Of a stretch of 64,000 bases of DNA, positions 44,251 through 56,867 are shown piece by piece. Both the position numbers and the translations under genes were made by a program. This stretch comes from Sulfurospirillum cavolei (lineage in GTDB: Bacteria > Campylobacterota > Campylobacteria > Campylobacterales > Sulfurospirillaceae). The notes under the pieces were generated by a model. It saw nothing but the letters and a program-made list of their open reading frames with translations, did no database searches and was not told where the DNA came from. Numbering within the stretch: position 1 is the stretch's first letter; each line of letters opens with the position of its first letter. Location: NCBI RefSeq assembly GCF_001548055.1, contig NZ_AP014724.1, positions 2,542,001 to 2,606,000 on the forward strand, given 5' to 3'.

Positions 44251-46107
44251 CTACATCATCGCGCTATAGACGATTGCAAACGCAAGGAGAACCAGCATCC
44301 CTACGATCATCCATCGTAACATATCGGAAAGATTTCCGCTTTGAATCTTTCTCGCCTCTTGACCGCTTGCATAAATGCATTTAGCGATGATATCTACCGT
44401 AAAATCCACCACTTTCATATCGATTTTTTGCCATACGAATTTGGAGAGCACCGTAAACGGTCGCATAATATAGCATTCGTATAACTTGGGAATATAGTAT
44501 TGATTGCTTAACAATCGATAGCACGCTTTGTCTTCCAACGATTTGGAGAAACCGCCCCGTTTGTATTTGTACACGGCAAAGCCGATACCGCTTAGCGCGA
44601 TTCCCAGCGTTGCGGCAATTAAAAGATACTCGGTTGCGTGCGGAATATGAATATGGTATTCGCTGACCAAGCGGGTAACGAACGCTTCAAACATCGGTTC
44701 AAAAAAGCCCGCAATAATTGCCAATAAACCTAAGGGTAAAAGGGCGTAAATGACGAAAGGTTGCGCATCGTGAGGATGAATGCCGTATTTGACATGTTCT
44801 TTTTCGCCGAAGAAAACCAACATCACTAAACGAAAACTGTAAAACGCCGTTAAGCCCGCACCGATGAACAAAGCGAGCCATAAACCGTACGCCCCTTCGT
44901 TAAACGCGACTTCCAAAATTTTATCTTTGGAGAAAAATCCCGCAAACGGATAAATACCCGCCAAGGCAACCGAAGCGACACTCATCAAAATTGCGGTGGC
45001 TTTCATGGAACCGTAAAGCCCTCCCATCTTTTTGATGTTTAGCTCATCGTGCATCGCATGCATAACGTTACCGGCACCCAAGAAAAGCAACGATTTAAAA
45101 AAGGCATGCGTCATCAAGTGAAACAGTGCAATCCAGTAAGCGCCCAAACCTGCCGCAACGAACATGTACCCAAGTTGCGAAAGCGTCGAATAGGCGATAA
45201 TGCGTTTTAAGTCGTTATTGACCAATGCCATCGAAGCCGCAAAAACGGCGACGAAAGCACCTAAAGAAGCGATCGCAAATCCTACATGCGGGATTAAACT
45301 GTACAACTCGCCGGCACGAATCACCAAATAAACGCCCGCGGTAACCATCGTTGCCGCATGAATCAACGCCGAAACGGGTGTCGGACCTTCCATCGCATCC
45401 GCAAGCCACGTATGGAGCGGAAACTGTGCCGATTTACCCATCGCACCGATAAATAAGAAAATACCGATCGTGACGACGATACTAACGGGAAGTTCCGGTG
45501 CGGCGGCAAAAACGTCGTCGTATTGAAACGATCCGACATTCCAGTAAATCAAGAAAAGACCCATCAACATTCCAAGATCCGCGATTCTGTTCATAATAAA
45601 CGCTTCGTTTGCCGCCCAAGATGCGGAGTGTTTATGATACCAAAATCCGATCAACAACCATGAACAAAGTCCCACGCCTTCCCATCCGATAAAAAGTCCG
45701 ACGAAGTTGTCGCTCATGACCAAAATCATCATCGAGAACACAAACGCGGAAAGGTACGAGAAAAAGCGGTTAAAGCTTTTATCGTGATCCATATAACCGA
45801 TGGAGTAAATATGCACAATCGTCGAAACCAGCGTGACGGTTACCATCATAATGACCGAAACCTCATCGACGACGAAACCGAAAGGTATTTCCAAATTGCC
45901 CGCGGTAATCCAATCCATCATCGTGACATGTAAAGGTCCGTAAGTATTGACGTCGACGAGCAACACAAACGAGCAAATCATCGAAACGGCAATCAGCAGC
46001 GATGCGACGATTCCCGTAAAAAGCATTTTCGGACGTGCCGCAAACACGGCGACGAACAGGGAACTGACAAGCGGCGAGAAGAGTGCCGTATAAAGATAGT
46101 TTTCCAT
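44251..46107 (-). CDS. nuoL: Complex I subunit NuoL
   Basis: A 618-residue distal antiporter-like subunit. It contains WEGVGLCSWLLIGFWY, LPDAMEGPTPVSALIHAA in the variant LADAMEGPTPVSALIHAATM, and DLKRIIAYSTLSQLGYM. The C-terminus includes the region expected to form the long amphipathic lateral helix and a final membrane segment. It lies three bases after nuoK. Confidence 0.97.
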   Translation of the reverse strand: MENYLYTALFSPLVSSLFVAVFAARPKMLFTGIVASLLIAVSMICSFVLLVDVNTYGPLHVTMMDWITAGNLEIPFGFVVDEVSVIMMVTVTLVSTIVHIYSIGYMDHDKSFNRFFSYLSAFVFSMMILVMSDNFVGLFIGWEGVGLCSWLLIGFWYHKHSASWAANEAFIMNRIADLGMLMGLFLIYWNVGSFQYDDVFAAAPELPVSIVVTIGIFLFIGAMGKSAQFPLHTWLADAMEGPTPVSALIHAATMVTAGVYLVIRAGELYSLIPHVGFAIASLGAFVAVFAASMALVNNDLKRIIAYSTLSQLGYMFVAAGLGAYWIALFHLMTHAFFKSLLFLGAGNVMHAMHDELNIKKMGGLYGSMKATAILMSVASVALAGIYPFAGFFSKDKILEVAFNEGAYGLWLALFIGAGLTAFYSFRLVMLVFFGEKEHVKYGIHPHDAQPFVIYALLPLGLLAIIAGFFEPMFEAFVTRLVSEYHIHIPHATEYLLIAATLGIALSGIGFAVYKYKRGGFSKSLEDKACYRLLSNQYYIPKLYECYIMRPFTVLSKFVWQKIDMKVVDFTVDIIAKCIYASGQEARKIQSGNLSDMLRWMIVGMLVLLAFAIVYSAMM

Positions 46108-46110
46108 GCC

Positions 46111-46413
46111 TTATCCCTTCATCATTTGTAAACTGTTTAGATCGACCGAACCGTTGCGTTTATACCACAAAATTAAAAGTCCAAGGCCGACGGCGACTTC
46201 GCTTGCCGCTACGGCGATAATAAAGAAGGCAAACATTTGACCGCTCAAATCGCCGTAAAATTTAGACACGGCGACAAAACCGATATTGACGGCATTGAGC
46301 AAAATTTCCGTTGAAAAGAAGAGCATCAAAAGGTTGGTTCGACGCATCACGCCGACAAGCCCGATCGAGAATAAAATACCCGTCAAAACAAGGTAATGCG
46401 TTAATCCTATCAT
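46111..46413 (-). CDS. nuoK: Complex I subunit NuoK
   Basis: A 100-residue, three-helix membrane subunit. The buried glutamates of helices two and three are in FFSTEILLNAVNIGF and VAASEVAVGLGLLI. It overlaps nuoJ by four bases (ATGA). Confidence 0.96.
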   Translation of the reverse strand: MIGLTHYLVLTGILFSIGLVGVMRRTNLLMLFFSTEILLNAVNIGFVAVSKFYGDLSGQMFAFFIIAVAASEVAVGLGLLILWYKRNGSVDLNSLQMMKG

Positions 46414-46964
46414 CGACTCTCCTTTACGTTTCCGATCTCTTCGTCTTCAATGTTTAAATGTTCGTCCATCTTTTTACTCGCCAAAACGATGCCGGCAATC
46501 ATCGCCACTAAGAGCATAATCGCCGCCAGTTCGAACGGAATGAGGTATTTTGTAAACAAAACCAATCCGATCATTTGTACGTTACCGACATGCTCTACGA
46601 TCGGAAAGTTTGCCTGCACGCTTGAAGAAACAAGCGGTGCGGACAAAATGACGACCATTAAAATCGCACTTAACACAAAAAGCGTGTAGGCGATTTTTTT
46701 GGAACGCATTTTTTCGCTCACGTCTCTCGTGGTATCGAAAAACATCATACCAAACGCATACAACGCCATAATCGCACCCGAATAAACGACGATCTGCACG
46801 ACACCTAAAAATTCGGCATCCAAGAGGAAAAAGAATCCCGAAATAAAAATCATACCGCCCGCTAACGCGCTCATGGCGTAAAGCGCATTTTTACTCATCA
46901 CCACAATCGTAAACATTGCGATCGTCAGTGCGGCAAAAAGATAAAAAGCTATCACTTCATACAT
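46410..46964 (-). CDS. nuoJ: Complex I subunit NuoJ
   Basis: A 184-residue membrane subunit with five helices. It has the conserved NALYAMSALAGGMIFISGFF and LGVVQIVVYSGAIMALYAFG, the flexible helix 3 region that couples quinone reduction to proton movement. It starts seven bases after nuoI and overlaps nuoK. Confidence 0.95.
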   Translation of the reverse strand: MYEVIAFYLFAALTIAMFTIVVMSKNALYAMSALAGGMIFISGFFFLLDAEFLGVVQIVVYSGAIMALYAFGMMFFDTTRDVSEKMRSKKIAYTLFVLSAILMVVILSAPLVSSSVQANFPIVEHVGNVQMIGLVLFTKYLIPFELAAIMLLVAMIAGIVLASKKMDEHLNIEDEEIGNVKESR

Positions 46965-46971
46965 GCTAACC

Positions 46972-47589
46972 TCAATACGCTAATGGTGTTTGTTTAACGT
47001 TTTCGTCGGCATTGGCACTTAACGCGCCGAAGCCTTGAAACTCTTTTTGTTGTTTGGCTTTGAACGTATCCAAAGGCGTTAACATATCTTCTTTCAATCC
47101 AAAATGCGCACGTTGCTCACCGGCATTTTCATACTCCGCTCCGTGAACGATTGCAAGTTCGGGACAAACCTCGGCACAATAACCGCAAAAAATACAACGT
47201 CCAAAATTGATACTGTATTCGCTCACGACTTTACGGCTTTTCTCGTCTACGTGCGTGTCCATACGAATACAATTGGAGATACAAATCTTTTCGCACAATC
47301 CACACCCGATACAACGCTCGCTCCCGCTTTCAAACAAACGTAACAAACGATGAATCGCACGGTATCTCGGGCTCATCTCGATCTTTTCCAAAGGATACTG
47401 CAAGGTGTGAATATCAAAACGGATCATCTCTCGTAAAACGATCCAAAGACCGACGAAAAGCTCGCCTTTGAGCGTTCGCTTAACAAAACGTTTGAACGCT
47501 TGCCAGCCGTCGGTAGGCGTCGCTTCGGTTTTTAAAAAAATATACGCGGAACCGACATCCCTGCGTTTGAAATCTTTAAGCTCCATCAT
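46972..47589 (-). CDS. nuoI: Complex I subunit NuoI (two [4Fe-4S] clusters)
   Basis: A 205-residue peripheral-arm subunit with two ferredoxin motifs, CIGCGLCEKICISNC and CIFCGYCAEVCPE, for clusters N6a and N6b that pass electrons towards NuoB. Two adjacent ATG codons are possible (47589 and 47586). The AGGAGG ribosome site is better spaced for the second. It follows nuoH by six bases. The C-terminal ~30 residues beyond the usual core are lineage-specific. Confidence 0.96.
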   Translation of the reverse strand: MMELKDFKRRDVGSAYIFLKTEATPTDGWQAFKRFVKRTLKGELFVGLWIVLREMIRFDIHTLQYPLEKIEMSPRYRAIHRLLRLFESGSERCIGCGLCEKICISNCIRMDTHVDEKSRKVVSEYSINFGRCIFCGYCAEVCPELAIVHGAEYENAGEQRAHFGLKEDMLTPLDTFKAKQQKEFQGFGALSANADENVKQTPLAY

Positions 47590-47595
47590 CGCCTC

Positions 47596-48588
47596 CTAAA
47601 GTAGCGCAAAGCCGGTAATGACAATATTGACGACCGATAAAGGCATCAACACTTTCCAGCATACCCACATCAATTGATCGGGACGTACATGCGGCCATGC
47701 GGCTCTAACCCACAAGAACAGAAAAATCCAAAACGAGACCTTAAGAAGCATCATAAGACCGCCGGGGATAAACCAAAACGCATTGTATCCGCCCATAAAA
47801 ATGATGCTGACTAACACCGAAATCGTAATCATATTGGCATATTCGCCGATAAAAAAGAGCCCCCAACGCATACCCGAATACTCCGTCGCATATCCGGCGA
47901 CGATTTCGGCTTCAAACTCGACCGTATCGAAAGGTGCGCGGTTAGTCTCCATAAAACCCGCAATTGCAAATAGCACAAACGCCAACGGTTGCTTCCAAAT
48001 CAACCAATCGCCGATACCGCCCGTTTGCGCATCGTTAATATCGATCAAGGAGAGCGAACCTATCATCATAATCGGAGCTAAAACGGAGAGTCCGCTGACC
48101 ACTTCAAACGACAACATCTGCACCACGGCACGTGCCGCACCCAAAAGAGACCATTTATTGGCACTGCTCATGCCCGCAAGCAACGGCCCGTAAATACCGA
48201 CCGACGCTACGCCCATAACGTAAAGCAACGCAACGTTGATGTCGGAGATAATCGGATGAATCGTGTATCCAAAAAGCGTAAATTCCGGAAAATAAGGAAC
48301 CGCCGCCATTGCGACGAATGCCGTCGTTGCGGCAATAACCGGAGCGATCATAAAAATCGGCTTGATGGCATTTTGAGGAATAATATCTTCTTTCGTAAAC
48401 AGTTTAATTCCGTCCGCCGCCAATTGCAATAATCCGTAAGGTCCGACGTGCATCGGGCCTAAACGACGCTGCATAAAGGCCAAGACTTTACGTTCGATAA
48501 ACGTCGCAAACCCCGCCAATGCCGCGATAACGGCAACGACGATAACGGCTTTTACGACGGTTTCAATGATAACGGCCGTATCAAACAT
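47596..48588 (-). CDS. nuoH: Complex I subunit NuoH
   Basis: A 330-residue membrane subunit at the quinone site with about eight helices. It carries FIERKVLAFMQRRLGPMHVGPYGLLQ, VSGLSVLAPIMM, the acidic loop ETNRAPFDTVEFEAEIVAGY and WVRAAWPHVRPDQLM. Its start overlaps the nuoG stop by eight bases. Confidence 0.97.
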   Translation of the reverse strand: MFDTAVIIETVVKAVIVVAVIAALAGFATFIERKVLAFMQRRLGPMHVGPYGLLQLAADGIKLFTKEDIIPQNAIKPIFMIAPVIAATTAFVAMAAVPYFPEFTLFGYTIHPIISDINVALLYVMGVASVGIYGPLLAGMSSANKWSLLGAARAVVQMLSFEVVSGLSVLAPIMMIGSLSLIDINDAQTGGIGDWLIWKQPLAFVLFAIAGFMETNRAPFDTVEFEAEIVAGYATEYSGMRWGLFFIGEYANMITISVLVSIIFMGGYNAFWFIPGGLMMLLKVSFWIFLFLWVRAAWPHVRPDQLMWVCWKVLMPLSVVNIVITGFALL

Positions 48589-51065: not shown

Positions 51066-51902
51066 TCACTTCACTATTTTTGTTACATGGTAAGGATAAG
51101 CGTTGTTCGCTTTGACTAAAGGCAATAAAGCGATGACGCCTTTTAGACGCTCGTCGCGTACGAAAACGCGAGGATACGTTTCGCGCTCGAAAACGACGTG
51201 AATCGCATCGTCGTGTTGAACTTTAGCGGCCACTTGAAATTGAGAAGAGCCGATTAAAAAACGCTCTTCTTCCGTATCGAGGCACGGACATTCATACACG
51301 ACGACGCCGTCAAAGCTGGCAATATCTTCCACCTCTTCGACCATCGTCTCTTCCGCAGCGATCCAATCGTGTTGCGTTGTACCCGAAATTTGAAGCTTTA
51401 TCGGCGTATGGCGAGCGATTAATCCCGCAAAACGTGCGATCTGCTCGGCTCTTGGATGGTAAAAAAGGTCTTCTCCCAAAATCAAAACGCCCTTTGTGAC
51501 ACCGGCGCATAACGTTTCGATCTCTTCGATCTCTTCTTCTCCGATATTACTCTCGGCACTGACATAACCGTCGTCCAAGGTTGAAAAGTAGGTTCGATAG
51601 GCTTCAGAAAGGCTATTCTCGGCTAAAAAGCTTTTGGCAAGCAAGGCCAAAACACCCTCTTCCGAACCGACTTCGTAACGGCTAAAAAATGTGCTTTTCG
51701 GGCTTAAAATCGGATCTTCCATCGTAAAAAGATAGATCAATTTTGCACCCGAGTCGACGCACGAAACAATCTCTTGGGCTAAAGCAAGATTATGACGCGA
51801 AGGCAAAGAGCCGATCAGTAAAATAACGTCACAATCTTTACATGTCGTTGTAAAACGGGATAAATCGCTTTGACCTAAAGCGCTTAAAAATGCTCTATTC
51901 AC
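51066..51902 (-). CDS. Protein at the nuoF position, resembling the C-terminal half of NuoG (Cj1574c-like)
   Basis: About 278 residues from the GTG at 51902, whose codon overlaps the end of the upstream gene (GTGAATAG) and has AAGG at suitable spacing. The frame also allows an ATG at 51950. There is no flavin- or NADH-binding motif and no iron-sulfur Cys pattern, so it is not NuoF. Three stretches resemble the neighbouring NuoG: GEDLFYHPRAEQIARFAGLI against GADLYTHPRANNIAALLGLI; RYEVGSEEGVLALL against THKIGTEEAIAYLL, with DPI upstream of each; and a C-terminal LKGVIALLP against LGGMIPYLP. It probably occupies a structural place in the peripheral arm, perhaps at a docking site for another electron donor. 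Confidence 0.8.
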   Translation of the reverse strand: MNRAFLSALGQSDLSRFTTTCKDCDVILLIGSLPSRHNLALAQEIVSCVDSGAKLIYLFTMEDPILSPKSTFFSRYEVGSEEGVLALLAKSFLAENSLSEAYRTYFSTLDDGYVSAESNIGEEEIEEIETLCAGVTKGVLILGEDLFYHPRAEQIARFAGLIARHTPIKLQISGTTQHDWIAAEETMVEEVEDIASFDGVVVYECPCLDTEEERFLIGSSQFQVAAKVQHDDAIHVVFERETYPRVFVRDERLKGVIALLPLVKANNAYPYHVTKIVK

Positions 51903-52137
51903 CGTTTGCGACCTTGACTTTTTTGACCACGATCGTCCAATCGGTCTCATTAAATTTCAACGAATTTAAAAGCGTCCAACCCGCTTCCTTAATCACGTCG
52001 GCACTCTTTTGTACCGCAGAAAAATCGCCGATTTCAAACATGAAGATAGACACTTCGCCTTCACTCGTTTCATCGATAATTTCGAGCATTCGCCCGTAAA
52101 AATCATCTCCTAAATGACGTAAATCGTAACGTTGCAT
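51895..52137 (-). CDS. Small protein at the nuoE position (Cj1575c-like)
   Basis: An 80-residue protein without the four cysteines of the NuoE [2Fe-2S] cluster. It has no membrane segment and reads as a small alpha/beta domain. In C. jejuni small proteins of unknown function stand at this place, where nuoE is expected; this call rests on position and size. Its stop overlaps the start of the NuoG-like gene, and it begins eight bases after nuoD. It probably acts as an accessory or docking subunit of complex I. Confidence 0.8.
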   Translation of the reverse strand: MQRYDLRHLGDDFYGRMLEIIDETSEGEVSIFMFEIGDFSAVQKSADVIKEAGWTLLNSLKFNETDWTIVVKKVKVANGE

Positions 52138-52145
52138 CCTCTCTC

Positions 52146-53372
52146 CTATCTGTCGATTTCGCCGAAGACGATATTGGCGTTACCGATAATCGCCACCACG
52201 TCTGCTAAATACTCTCCTACAAGCATCTCTTGCAAGAGGGCCGTATGAAAAAAGCTCGGCGCGCGAAGTTTTAAACGGTACGGATACGGATCGCCTTGTG
52301 AATTGATATAAAAACCGAGTTCCCCTTTGGGCGATTCGGTCGGTACGTATACTTCTCCTACCGGCGGTCTCATACCTTGCGTTACTAAAACGAAATGTTG
52401 CATTAGCGAATAATTTTGCGTCATAATCTGCTCTTTGGGAGCCGAAACATACTGCGGCGCATGCGCGATAATTTCCGGTGCAGTTTCGTCGTACATCGGC
52501 ATCAATTGTTTTAAGATACGAATACTTTGACGCATCTCTTCCATATGCAGTTTATACCTTCCGTAGCTATCGCATGTCGTACTGACGGGTACGTCGAACT
52601 CCACTTCGTCGTACAACTCGTAAGGCTCTTCTTTTCGAATATCCCACGCAATGCCGCTTCCGCGAAGCATCGGACCGGAACAACCCCAACTTTGCGCTTG
52701 TTCGGGCGTTACGATACCGACACCCTCCAAACGCATTTTCCAAATACGGTTTTGATCCAGCAAACCTTCGTAATCTTCGATGTCGTACGGTAAACGGTTA
52801 ACGTAGGCGTTGAGTTTTTCGAGCCAACCCTTAGGCAAATCAAGCGGTACGCCGCCGATACGAACGGAAGAATGCGTTAAACGTGCTCCGCAATAGTCCT
52901 CAATCAAATCAAGCGCATACTCTCTTTCTCTAAACGCATACAAGAAAATCGTCATCGCTCCGACGTCTAGGGCATGCGTCGCAAGCCAAAACAGATGCGA
53001 GGTAATGCGGTTGAGCTCTAACAACAACATACGAATGACTTTTGCACGTCTTGGCACTTCCAAACCGATCAGCGTTTCGACCGCCAACGCAAAGCCGTAG
53101 TTATTAGACGTCGCCGCGATGTAATCCATACGGTCCGTCGTCGGTAAAAATTCGTTGTAAATCATATTTTCCGCCATTTTCTCCATACCGCGGTGCAAAT
53201 AGCCGATGTCGGGAGTGGCTTTGGAGACTTTCTCGCCGTCCAATTCTAAAATCAACCGCAACTGTCCGTGCGCGCTGGGGTGTTGCGGACCAAAGTTGAC
53301 GATCATATGATTGTCTTCGCGTTCAAACGCGATGTTTTCGAAAAAGGGCTTTAAACGATTAACTTTTTGCAT
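52146..53372 (-). CDS. nuoD: Complex I subunit NuoD (49-kDa)
   Basis: A 408-residue peripheral subunit at the quinone pocket. It has [20 protein letters not shown] near residue 26 (the quinone-site His in GPQHPSAHG), [32 protein letters not shown] and the C-terminal [14 protein letters not shown]. It is three bases downstream of nuoC and not fused to it. Confidence 0.97.
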
Positions 53373-53374
53373 AT

Positions 53375-54172
53375 TTAGGGCCTCTCTTTCACAATTTTAC
53401 TCTCGCTTTTCTTGAGCGACTTCACGATCGTTACGCCGCCTTCTTCTTGGTAATCATGGAAGGTTTTTTCACGGCTCGGTTCGGCACCGAAAGGCACTTC
53501 ATGTCCCAAACGCGCAAAGCGATACGTATCGTTTTCGTCCACACGGGCACTATCGCGCTCTTCAGGACCGATAATATCGCGATACTCTTTACCGAAAATC
53601 TTATCGATTTCATACCAGCGCGCCGCTTCGTCGCCGTGTAAAGGATAGGTTTTTAAGAGCGGATACCCGAACCAATCGTCCGGCATTAAAAGACGTTTCA
53701 TGTACGGGTGTCCGCTGATGACGATACCGAACATATCGTACATCTCGCGTTCCGCCCAATCGGCACTTTTATACACGCCGTAAACACTTTGAAGCACCTC
53801 TTTTTCGTGAATGAAACATTTGACGCGAAGGCGTTTACGTTTGGAGGTTGAAAGCAGTTGATAAAAAAGTTCGAATTCGTTACTTTTTGCCAACCAATCA
53901 ATCGCACTGTGTTCGCTCAGAATATTGTAGGCACACTCGTCTTTCAACGTCTGTAAGAGCGCGACATTGTCCCTCGCATCGATATAAACGACCAATTGTC
54001 CGCGTTGAATATACGCCTCTTTAATTTCGAATTTCGATTGGAGCACTGCAAGGTCTTGTGCAAAAACTGCGTCGCCCTCTACCGCTTCTTTGGGTATTTG
54101 CGGTGCTACGAAATAGCGATCCGAATAGTAAGGTTTTTTTTGTACGTTTTGTTTATCGCTGTACGGTCTCAT
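53375..54172 (-). CDS. nuoC: Complex I subunit NuoC (30-kDa)
   Basis: 265 residues from the ATG at 54172, which overlaps the nuoB stop (TAATG). A longer open frame to 54364 lies inside nuoB and has an unlikely Arg/Tyr-rich N-terminus. Family blocks are [38 protein letters not shown] long N-terminal ~70-residue part precedes the usual core, and a C-terminal charged tail follows. Confidence 0.95.
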
Positions 54173-54681
54173 TACACTAACCTTTTGGGAGCTAATTTGC
54201 GTGATGCTTTTTCGGAGCGAATTTTCTTTTGTAACAACATCAACGCATATTGAAGGGTTTCGGGGCGTGGAGCACATCCGGGTAAATAAATATCGACCGG
54301 AACGATACGATCGGCACCTTGAACGGTAGCGTACGTATTGAACATACCGCCGGTATTGGCGCAACTGCCCATACTAATAACCCATTTGGGATCGGGCATT
54401 TGATCGTACAAACGGCGCATAAACGGCGCGTGTTTTTTGGTCAGTGTTCCGGCAATAATCAAAACGTCCGACTGTCTCGGACTCGCTCTAAAAATCGTTC
54501 CGAAACGATCGAAGTCGTAACGGCTTGCACCCGTCGCCATCATTTCGATCGCACAACAGGCAAGTCCGTACGTAAGCGGCCAAAGCGAGTTACTACGACC
54601 CCATTGCACCAGTTTGTCAACCGTCGTTAAGGCAACGGGAAGACCTGCTTCTTGAAGGTAATTTATTTTATGCTGTGCCAT
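54172..54681 (-). CDS. nuoB: Complex I subunit NuoB
   Basis: A 169-residue subunit that carries cluster N2, the last in the chain before quinone. The ligands are the tandem cysteines C42-C43 in [10 protein letters not shown], the Cys in [10 protein letters not shown] (about 107) and the Cys in [10 protein letters not shown] (about 137). Its start overlaps the nuoA end by 19 bases. Confidence 0.97.
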
Positions 54682-55052
54682 TCAAGCGCTCCTTTTTTCC
54701 ATGCATAGACAAATCCGATCGTTAAAATAACGACGAAAAGAATCATTTCGATAAATCCGAACATTCCTAAAACCTTAAAGTCGACCGCCCACGGAAACAT
54801 AAAAATAATTTCCACGTCAAACAAAATAAAAAGCACGGCAAAAAGGTAAAAATGCGCCGAGATTTTATTGGGTTGTTTGGTGACCTCAGGGCCGCATTCG
54901 TAAATCGTCAGTTTCAATTTTTCCGTATCGAGACGTGCCATATTGCGACTGACGCGACGCGCTAAAACCGTAATGCCGTAAAAGACGACCGCACCGAAAA
55001 CAAAGAGGAAAAACGCTCCGAAATAGGGATGCGCAAAATCCATATGGGTCAT
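54663..55052 (-). CDS. nuoA: Complex I subunit NuoA
   Basis: A 129-residue membrane subunit with three helices. The loop after helix one has YECGPEV and [23 protein letters not shown], typical of NuoA. The ATG at 55052 has AAGGA at good spacing. It is the first gene of the 14-gene operon. The 81-base gap upstream has a TTACATGTAA palindrome but no obvious -10 box, so transcription may start further upstream. Confidence 0.96.
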
Positions 55053-55133: not shown

Positions 55134-56867
55134 TTAACTCATAAAACCGACCGACTTCGTGTCGCCGAAAGCTCCTTTGGTTTCACGATCGATCGAGAGT
55201 TTAAAATCTTCATAAGTAAAAAGCGGCTCTTTTTTGATCGCAACGCGCAAAGCCGTATTTTTGAGCACCACGCGAATTTGTCCGCCCGTCAGTGAAAAAG
55301 TCGCCAATTTCTCGACATCAAAGCCCTCTTCGTAAGGGGCATTGTCCGGCAAAAGTTTTTTCCATAACAAAACGCGTTGAGCAAAATCGGGTTTTTCAAA
55401 CGCGATCTTGTAATCAAAACGCCTTGAAAACGCGGGGTCGATCGTTTCCAAAAGATTGGTCGTTGCAATAAGTAGTCCGTCGAAACGCTCAATCTGCTCT
55501 AGAAAAATATTTTGCATTTGATTGTGCATTTTATCGGCACTCGCCCCGCTATCGGTAGAACGCGCGCTTAAAAACTGATCGGCTTCGTTGAGAAGCAACA
55601 AAGGTTCGCTTTTCGTTTTTTTACACAACTCTTTATAGGTGTCAAAAATATTGCGTACGTTTTTTTCACTTTCTCCGACGTATTTGGAAAGAATTTTTGA
55701 ACAATCAAAACTCAAAACTCTCTTTTTCATCGATTTTGCCAAAGAAAGTGCCGTCATGGTTTTACCCGTACCCGGCGGGCCGTATAAAATGACTTTGGCA
55801 TCGATACCGCTACGTCGCTCTTTGATGCCCCACTCTCGCAACAGTTTTACGACGCTTTTATCGATTTGCTTGAGTAAATTATCGAGCACTTCCTTGGTTT
55901 TAGGATGCAAAATCACGTCGTCTAAATTGGTTTTAGGATCGATCAATTCAAAAAGCTCTTGCTCGCCGATGAGCATATCCAGTTTAATTTTCTTGCTTTT
56001 CTTTTCTTTATTAGGGTGCATAATTTTTTGCAAAATTTCTTCGGAAATGAAAAAACTTCGCGTTACGCCGCCGAAAGTACTCAGCATCTCGTCGTAATCG
56101 ATGATCATATTTTCGATAAGTTTGGAACCCTCTTCCAGTAACGAGCGATTTTTGATCTTTTCGTAATCGTCCATACTAATCAAGCTAATCAGCGTATTCA
56201 TATCGCGCAAACTCTCAAATTCGCCCGCATACTCCTCTTTTAAAAGTGCTAAAAAAATTAACTGTTCTTTGGGGTTTAACTCGTTCTCTTTGAAAATCGA
56301 CTCGACGATAATGTCGTTTTGCGTTACTTTTAAGCGCTCGCTGATACGGCTTTCCAAAAGTTCCAATTTATTTTTGAGTCGCCCGAGACTCGGAGAACTC
56401 TCCGTCGCACCGTGTTTGGTTTGCGTAAACTTTTGATACAGTTCGATTCGGTAAAATTGATCTTTCAAATATTCAAGATGATCGGCATAAGGCGTAACGT
56501 CAGGTAACACTACCTCGAGCGTTCCCTCTTCCAACAACTTTAAAAAAGCGGAACTTAACGTAACGCTACTGTTTAGAAGCTCTAAATTCGAAACGTCGAC
56601 GATCTTTGAGTTTAAAAAACTATTTTGAACGATCCATCCTTGTTCGATTAATTCCTTGACCACGGAAAGATGGTGTAAATGTGCATAGTTTTTATCGCCG
56701 AACAGTTTAATCAAAATATCCGAAACAACGATGTCTACGTTACCTATAACGTACTCTTTCGTCATCATTTTTAAGAAATTTAATTCGTCGGGAGAACATT
56801 TTAAATGTTCATAAATCTGACACGCTTGTACCTCTTTGTTTTCAAGAAAATCAACCAAATACTGCAA
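55134..56867 (-). CDS. AAA-family ATPase
   Basis: 577 residues. The N-terminal ~330 residues are helical with no motif that I know. The C-terminal AAA module has Walker A GPPGTGKTMTALSLA (about 360), a Walker B written LLLLNEADQF (Asn-Glu in place of Asp-Glu), sensor-1 LLIATTNLLETIDPAF and an arginine finger in FSRRFDYKI. It resembles bacterial ATPases of the ClpX/FtsH-like 'NEAD' group, of unsettled role. The start codon is TTG with AAGGG seven bases upstream. It lies just upstream of nuoA in the same direction; a link to complex I assembly is only a thought from position. Confidence 0.85.
   Translation of the reverse strand: MQYLVDFLENKEVQACQIYEHLKCSPDELNFLKMMTKEYVIGNVDIVVSDILIKLFGDKNYAHLHHLSVVKELIEQGWIVQNSFLNSKIVDVSNLELLNSSVTLSSAFLKLLEEGTLEVVLPDVTPYADHLEYLKDQFYRIELYQKFTQTKHGATESSPSLGRLKNKLELLESRISERLKVTQNDIIVESIFKENELNPKEQLIFLALLKEEYAGEFESLRDMNTLISLISMDDYEKIKNRSLLEEGSKLIENMIIDYDEMLSTFGGVTRSFFISEEILQKIMHPNKEKKSKKIKLDMLIGEQELFELIDPKTNLDDVILHPKTKEVLDNLLKQIDKSVVKLLREWGIKERRSGIDAKVILYGPPGTGKTMTALSLAKSMKKRVLSFDCSKILSKYVGESEKNVRNIFDTYKELCKKTKSEPLLLLNEADQFLSARSTDSGASADKMHNQMQNIFLEQIERFDGLLIATTNLLETIDPAFSRRFDYKIAFEKPDFAQRVLLWKKLLPDNAPYEEGFDVEKLATFSLTGGQIRVVLKNTALRVAIKKEPLFTYEDFKLSIDRETKGAFGDTKSVGFMS

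Follow-up and report, generated by a model that had tools for sequence, protein, structure and literature searches.

The complex I operon of Sulfurospirillum cavolei carries, just upstream of nuoG, a gene (here X) whose product is very likely the shrunken survivor of a full-length second NuoG (here G2). Within complex I it most likely serves in docking or assembly, and it probably has an additional function that is independent of the complex. X is a relative of NuoG but not itself a NuoG, as the defining Fe-S ligands are missing, and the reduction that led from G2 to X took place more than once in the order.

Results

X occupies the Cj1574c-type slot of complex I. In the window, by which we mean the whole stretch of 64,000 nucleotides that was analysed and that belongs to a complete genome of 2.70 Mb, the complex I operon lies on the minus strand and reads nuoA-B-C-D, E-like, X, G1, nuoH onward, G1 being the main NuoG of the complex (Table 1). 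With the E-like (PF16514) gene before it and nuoG after it, X occupies the Cj1574c-type slot of the epsilon complex I.

Table 1. Genes and segments of the complex I operon and its flank (positions in the window)
Feature	Position	Strand	Remark
nuoH, I, J, K, L	44251..48588	-	Downstream of G1; operon reading
G1, main NuoG of the complex, 825 aa	48581..51058	-	[2Fe-2S]/[4Fe-4S] ligands present
X, 278-aa truncated second NuoG (Cj1574c-type subunit)	51066..51902	-	GTG start; 8-base overlap with upstream gene
Internal deletion junction in X	51357..51365	-	X ~180/182 corresponds to G2 504 and 628
X residues 76-127, conserved core YEvGSEE...LDxGYxSAESNxGEEE	51522..51677	-	Common to X and G2, not G1
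E-like subunit, 80 aa	51895..52137	-	PF16514, E value 7e-38; homologue of HP1264 (PDB 2lxr)
nuoD, nuoC, nuoB, nuoA	52146..55052	-	Upstream of E-like gene; operon reading
AAA ATPase	55134..56867	-	5' flank of nuo operon in many relatives; marks site of lone X in one Arcobacteraceae genus

Two starts can be read for X. The GTG start gives the 278-residue form of Table 1, and an ATG at 51950 gives a longer form of 294 residues. We preferred the GTG because of the overlap with the upstream gene and because the relatives start near the same place. The original prediction, whose residue numbers refer to the longer ATG form, had listed motifs common to X and the adjacent NuoG, and all of them were found: DPI at 79-81 (417-419 in G1), RYEVGSEE at 91-98 (THKIGTEE, 431-438), GEDLFYHPRA at 159-168 (GADLYTHPRA, 544-553), GLIARHTP at 176-183 (GLIERLTP, 561-568), and LKGVIALLP at 269-277 (LGGMIPYLP, 788-796). 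Pfam gave no match for X, and hence no NuoF, NuoE, or flavoprotein domain.

X is homologous to NuoG and is closest to a second NuoG. BLASTP aligned X with G1 at an E value of 3e-8 over 182 columns, and a search of the whole genome with X returned NuoG as the sole second match. The NCBIfam NuoG model PRK08493 matched X at an E value of 2.4e-20 with 72 bits, which is below its cut-off of 591. In profile-profile comparisons, X matched G1 with a local E value of 1.4e-29, so that the proposed kinship with the C-terminal half of NuoG was borne out, and matched G2 with 6.9e-63; the controls (seven unrelated profiles, shuffled and reversed profiles) gave 0.08 or worse. X was closer to G2 than to G1 also when the profiles were restricted to distant families. 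The alignment covers G2 residues 344-504 and 628-741, and X has neither the Fe-S half nor a central stretch of about 120 residues. The cysteines and the histidine that bind the [2Fe-2S] and [4Fe-4S] clusters are present in G1 and G2 and absent from X, which has no conserved cysteine at all. Within the core of X, E77, D110, G112, E117, and E122 are invariant in the family alignment. X thus resembles the NuoG/Nqo3/75-kDa subunit in its molybdopterin-oxidoreductase-like C-terminal half and in being encoded in the same operon, and its full-length paralogue G2 is a NuoG complete with Fe-S ligands, but X differs from this subunit in missing the whole Fe-S half and a central segment of the C-terminal half.

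Many relatives carry a full-length second NuoG in place of X. We surveyed 150 genomes of the order and found that, in many families, the best matches of X are not short proteins but NuoG proteins of about 750 residues, which we call G2. The operons exist in two states, A-B-C-D-(E-like)-FN-G2-G1-H... versus A-B-C-D-(E-like)-X-G1-H.... FN (about 670 residues) combines the C-terminal 4Fe-4S domain of NuoF with a GltD/NfnB-like flavoprotein, and G2 is a full second NuoG that includes the Fe-S domains and is colinear with G1 from end to end, even in the central segment that X has lost. Among the operons surveyed, none combined FN with a true X, and FN was absent from X-type operons; the one apparent FN-plus-X operon (L111) proved to be a split G2. 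Half-reduced forms of G2, 472 to 511 residues long and not accompanied by FN, were found in Sulfurimonas (495 and 511 residues) and in another family (472 residues).

In the PDB, FN and G2 matched the two parts of StnC/NfnA-type chains. FN and G2 together have the same blocks as StnC of the Stn transhydrogenase and as NfnA/NsoC, namely, a GltD/NfnB-like flavoprotein and a NuoG-like part, but they are encoded by two genes, the NuoF 4Fe-4S domain is added to FN, and the genes lie inside a complex I operon. By this analogy, FN and the second NuoG look like a split StnC NADPH-input arm, of which X would retain only a part of the FdhF-like end. FN-G2 loci (e.g., L032:3064-7302) lie inside the complex I operon of many free-living Campylobacterota, and we found no description of this arrangement in the literature searched.

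The survey also yielded two observations on the NuoG proteins and operons themselves. Nearly all G2 proteins retain cysteines 223, 226, 230, and 254 (G2 numbering), which probably bind the N7 4Fe-4S cluster, but only 59% of the G1 rows do so, and most of the four equivalents are missing from the G1 of the window. In a Nitratifractor-like assembly (G118), two pieces of epsilon-type nuo operons with strongly differing X proteins lie on different contigs (L039 and L040); either the genome has two such operons or the assembly is mixed.

The reduction of G2 to X occurred repeatedly. In a tree with G1 as the outgroup, G1 formed one clade and X fell inside G2. In a more careful tree, the X proteins of three Sulfuricurvum-like genomes were nested in the G2 of Sulfuricurvum (99/94, 100/98), and the two half-reduced forms of Sulfurimonas were nested in the G2 of Sulfurimonas. 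A single clade of all X proteins was rejected (p-AU 1.7e-5); when the Sulfuricurvum X proteins were set aside, a single origin of X was not rejected (p-AU 0.21). The rejection of one X clade, together with the nesting in Sulfuricurvum, indicates that full reduction occurred at least twice. In some families X sits on long branches, which makes its exact position in the tree uncertain; the longest branch belongs to a Helicobacter-like genus (L083, L085) with an unusually long, divergent X of 339 residues.

These data bear on two other accounts of the origin of X. The original prediction derived X from the adjacent NuoG by duplication of its C-terminal domain, the duplicate then capping the peripheral arm in a NuoG/NuoG-like pseudo-dimer. 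The two proteins are indeed homologous and adjacent, and the derivation from the molybdopterin-like half of a NuoG stands, since X is homologous to that half and is predicted to have the same fold. However, X is much closer to G2, sits in the slot of G2, and is nested in G2, and half-reduced forms of G2 exist. Profiles, operons, and trees all point to X as the remnant of the full-length paralogue G2, and G1 is very unlikely to have been the source. Even less credible is the reverse course of events, in which an X-like protein would have acquired Fe-S domains by fusion and so become G2. It would agree with the occurrence of X in distant families too, but not with the colinearity of G2 and G1 throughout, central segment included, nor with the nesting of truncated forms in full-length clades.

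X is predicted to have the fold of molybdopterin oxidoreductases. An AlphaFold model of X, built with 29 sequences, had a pLDDT of 93.2 and a pTM of 0.91 and displayed a compact molybdopterin-oxidoreductase fold. With Foldseek and VIA-align, all 278 residues of the model matched Mo/W formate dehydrogenases (Z 24, rmsd of 3.0 over 272 residues). Nqo3 of the Thermus complex I was matched as well and ranked below the molybdoenzymes; the fold is thus of the type of the NuoG C-terminal half, as had been anticipated, although molybdoenzymes came first. When PDB sequences were searched with the X profile, no meaningful match came up (best E value, 0.72), and structure comparison is therefore the only link from X to solved folds. 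The model of G2 (mean pLDDT of 78, the Fe-S half being less sure) matched formate dehydrogenases and NuoG chains. Compared to the Mo/W-bisPGD formate dehydrogenases FdhH and FDH1, X would share the same fold over 278 residues but is much smaller, has no central segment, and bears no sign of catalysis. The missing central segment suggests that binding of a Mo cofactor by X is unlikely.

X is kept in genomes that lack this complex I. In 23 genomes belonging to five groups, X was present and this complex I was absent. None of the 23 harbored the E-like gene, no G1-type NuoG was found in them, and their NuoD proteins, if any, were of the canonical or hydrogenase type; two Helicobacter-like genomes gave no NuoD match whatever. 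The family names used for these lineages (Arcobacteraceae, Campylobacteraceae, Helicobacter-like, and probably Nautiliaceae) were deduced from their gene content, their neighbours, and relatives that carry names. One Arcobacteraceae genus has the order AAA-X-mqnA, versus AAA-nuoA...N-mqnA in relatives. The order X-pflA is seen in a genus of the Helicobacter-like type and in a further family, versus nuoN close to pflA in relatives (pflA being, by our reading, a PflA-like DUF7494/TPR protein gene). As the flanks match those of the relatives, these two settings lie exactly at the former site of the nuo operon. In a Campylobacteraceae-type genus, X lies far from any nuo gene. The X copies of three of the groups branch with their own families and were therefore inherited. 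We looked to the neighbours of lone X copies (hemN, mqnA, pflA, and hydrogenase genes) for hints to function, but mqnA and pflA are simply the genes that used to flank the nuo operon. One lone-X genome carries a canonical complex I (L207:227-11718) with a fused NuoCD of 544 residues and a short NuoG of 478 residues; one type of complex I thus appears to have replaced the other.

The dN/dS ratio was 0.07 to 0.39 in 9 of 11 pairs of these orphan X genes, indicating mostly purifying selection. It reached 0.56 to 0.68 in two pairs from the AT-rich Arcobacteraceae genus, where constraint is either weak or poorly estimated. E77, D110, G112, E117, E122, F222, G255, and Y269 were fixed in all 23 orphans, and K227 was present in 96%. 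Since X persists by itself, with its invariant residues unchanged and in most pairs under purifying selection, it probably has a role independent of complex I.

Alternatively, X could be a subunit of complex I only, and the copies found elsewhere could be vanishing leftovers or serve another complex I or a group 4 hydrogenase. In several orphan genomes there is indeed a different complex I or there are hydrogenases of a NuoD-like kind, and the loose constraint in the one Arcobacteraceae genus would fit. We nevertheless consider this unlikely, given that all 23 sampled genomes, from five groups, have kept X, with low dN/dS in most pairs and the same fixed residues, and that NuoD matches are lacking altogether in two of the Helicobacter-like genomes.

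Discussion

We propose that X is what remains of G2. The ancestral operon of the Campylobacterota would most likely have been A-B-C-D-(E-like)-FN-G2-G1-H..., with FN and G2 forming a split StnC-type NADPH-input arm that may have passed electrons from NAD(P)H via FAD and the Fe-S clusters into complex I. The StnC subunit of Stn accepts electrons from NADPH, and assembly requires its FdhF-like end, which is inactive (PMC10482914). Several lineages would then have lost FN along with the Fe-S half of G2, and subsequently a central segment, leaving a protein of 205 to 300 residues with a molybdopterin fold. As X has neither a conserved cysteine nor Fe-S ligands, no electrons can pass through Fe-S clusters in X. 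In the complex I studied here, X would most likely sit at the tip, beside the presumably FMN-binding E-like subunit (FMN binding has been reported for HP1264 [PMC6269979]), and serve in docking or assembly, probably holding the tip together where the FN-G2 arm once stood. Reduced flavodoxin or ferredoxin would then feed G1, and a donor of this type has been reported for the C. jejuni complex I (PMC4178425; PMC6682613).

The literature searched describes the NuoE/NuoF slot as filled by replacement genes, and the Cj1574c/HP1265-type subunit is one of the nuoXY pair (e.g., PMC6682613). We place X with this subunit by its operon position and by a family alignment that includes X proteins from Campylobacteraceae and Helicobacter-like genomes, rather than by the Cj1574c sequence. 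In PMC4178425, flavodoxin oxidation is said to be mediated by the Cj1574c-type subunit, a proposal credited there to Weerakoon and Olson. X could accordingly be a docking subunit for flavodoxin (or ferredoxin) that passes electrons into complex I, and the slot did formerly hold an electron-input module. We regard this as possible but rather doubtful: X has no conserved cysteine, Fe-S ligand, or match to a flavoprotein domain, and it persists without the complex. Docking without electron transfer is compatible with our preferred explanation too.

In the literature searched, we found no second NuoG, no such origin of X, and no retention of X without the complex, in line with the expectation that the NuoG origin of X had not been described; an earlier notice is possible, since subscription papers lay mostly outside the search. 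According to a TraDIS study, which mentions Cj1574c only next to it, Cj1575c is essential in both C. jejuni and C. coli. Weerakoon and Olson reportedly found in 2008 that Cj1574c could not be disrupted, and was hence essential, while nuo genes could be. A role of X outside complex I would fit this reported difference.

On balance, we favour the view that the function of X is needed by Campylobacterota generally and independently of complex I, probably through a candidate site near E77, D110, G112, E117, E122, F222, and K227. X would first have been a domain of the second NuoG and would have outlived the input module and, in some lineages, the whole complex.

The proteins in the NuoE and NuoF places of the complex I of Campylobacter, Helicobacter, and Sulfurospirillum have so far been of unknown origin. 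X now gains a clear ancestry with intermediates that are still living, and the module that formerly filled its slot is revealed. Its retention in the absence of the complex offers a testable reason for the puzzle that the reported disruption experiments with Cj1574c would pose.
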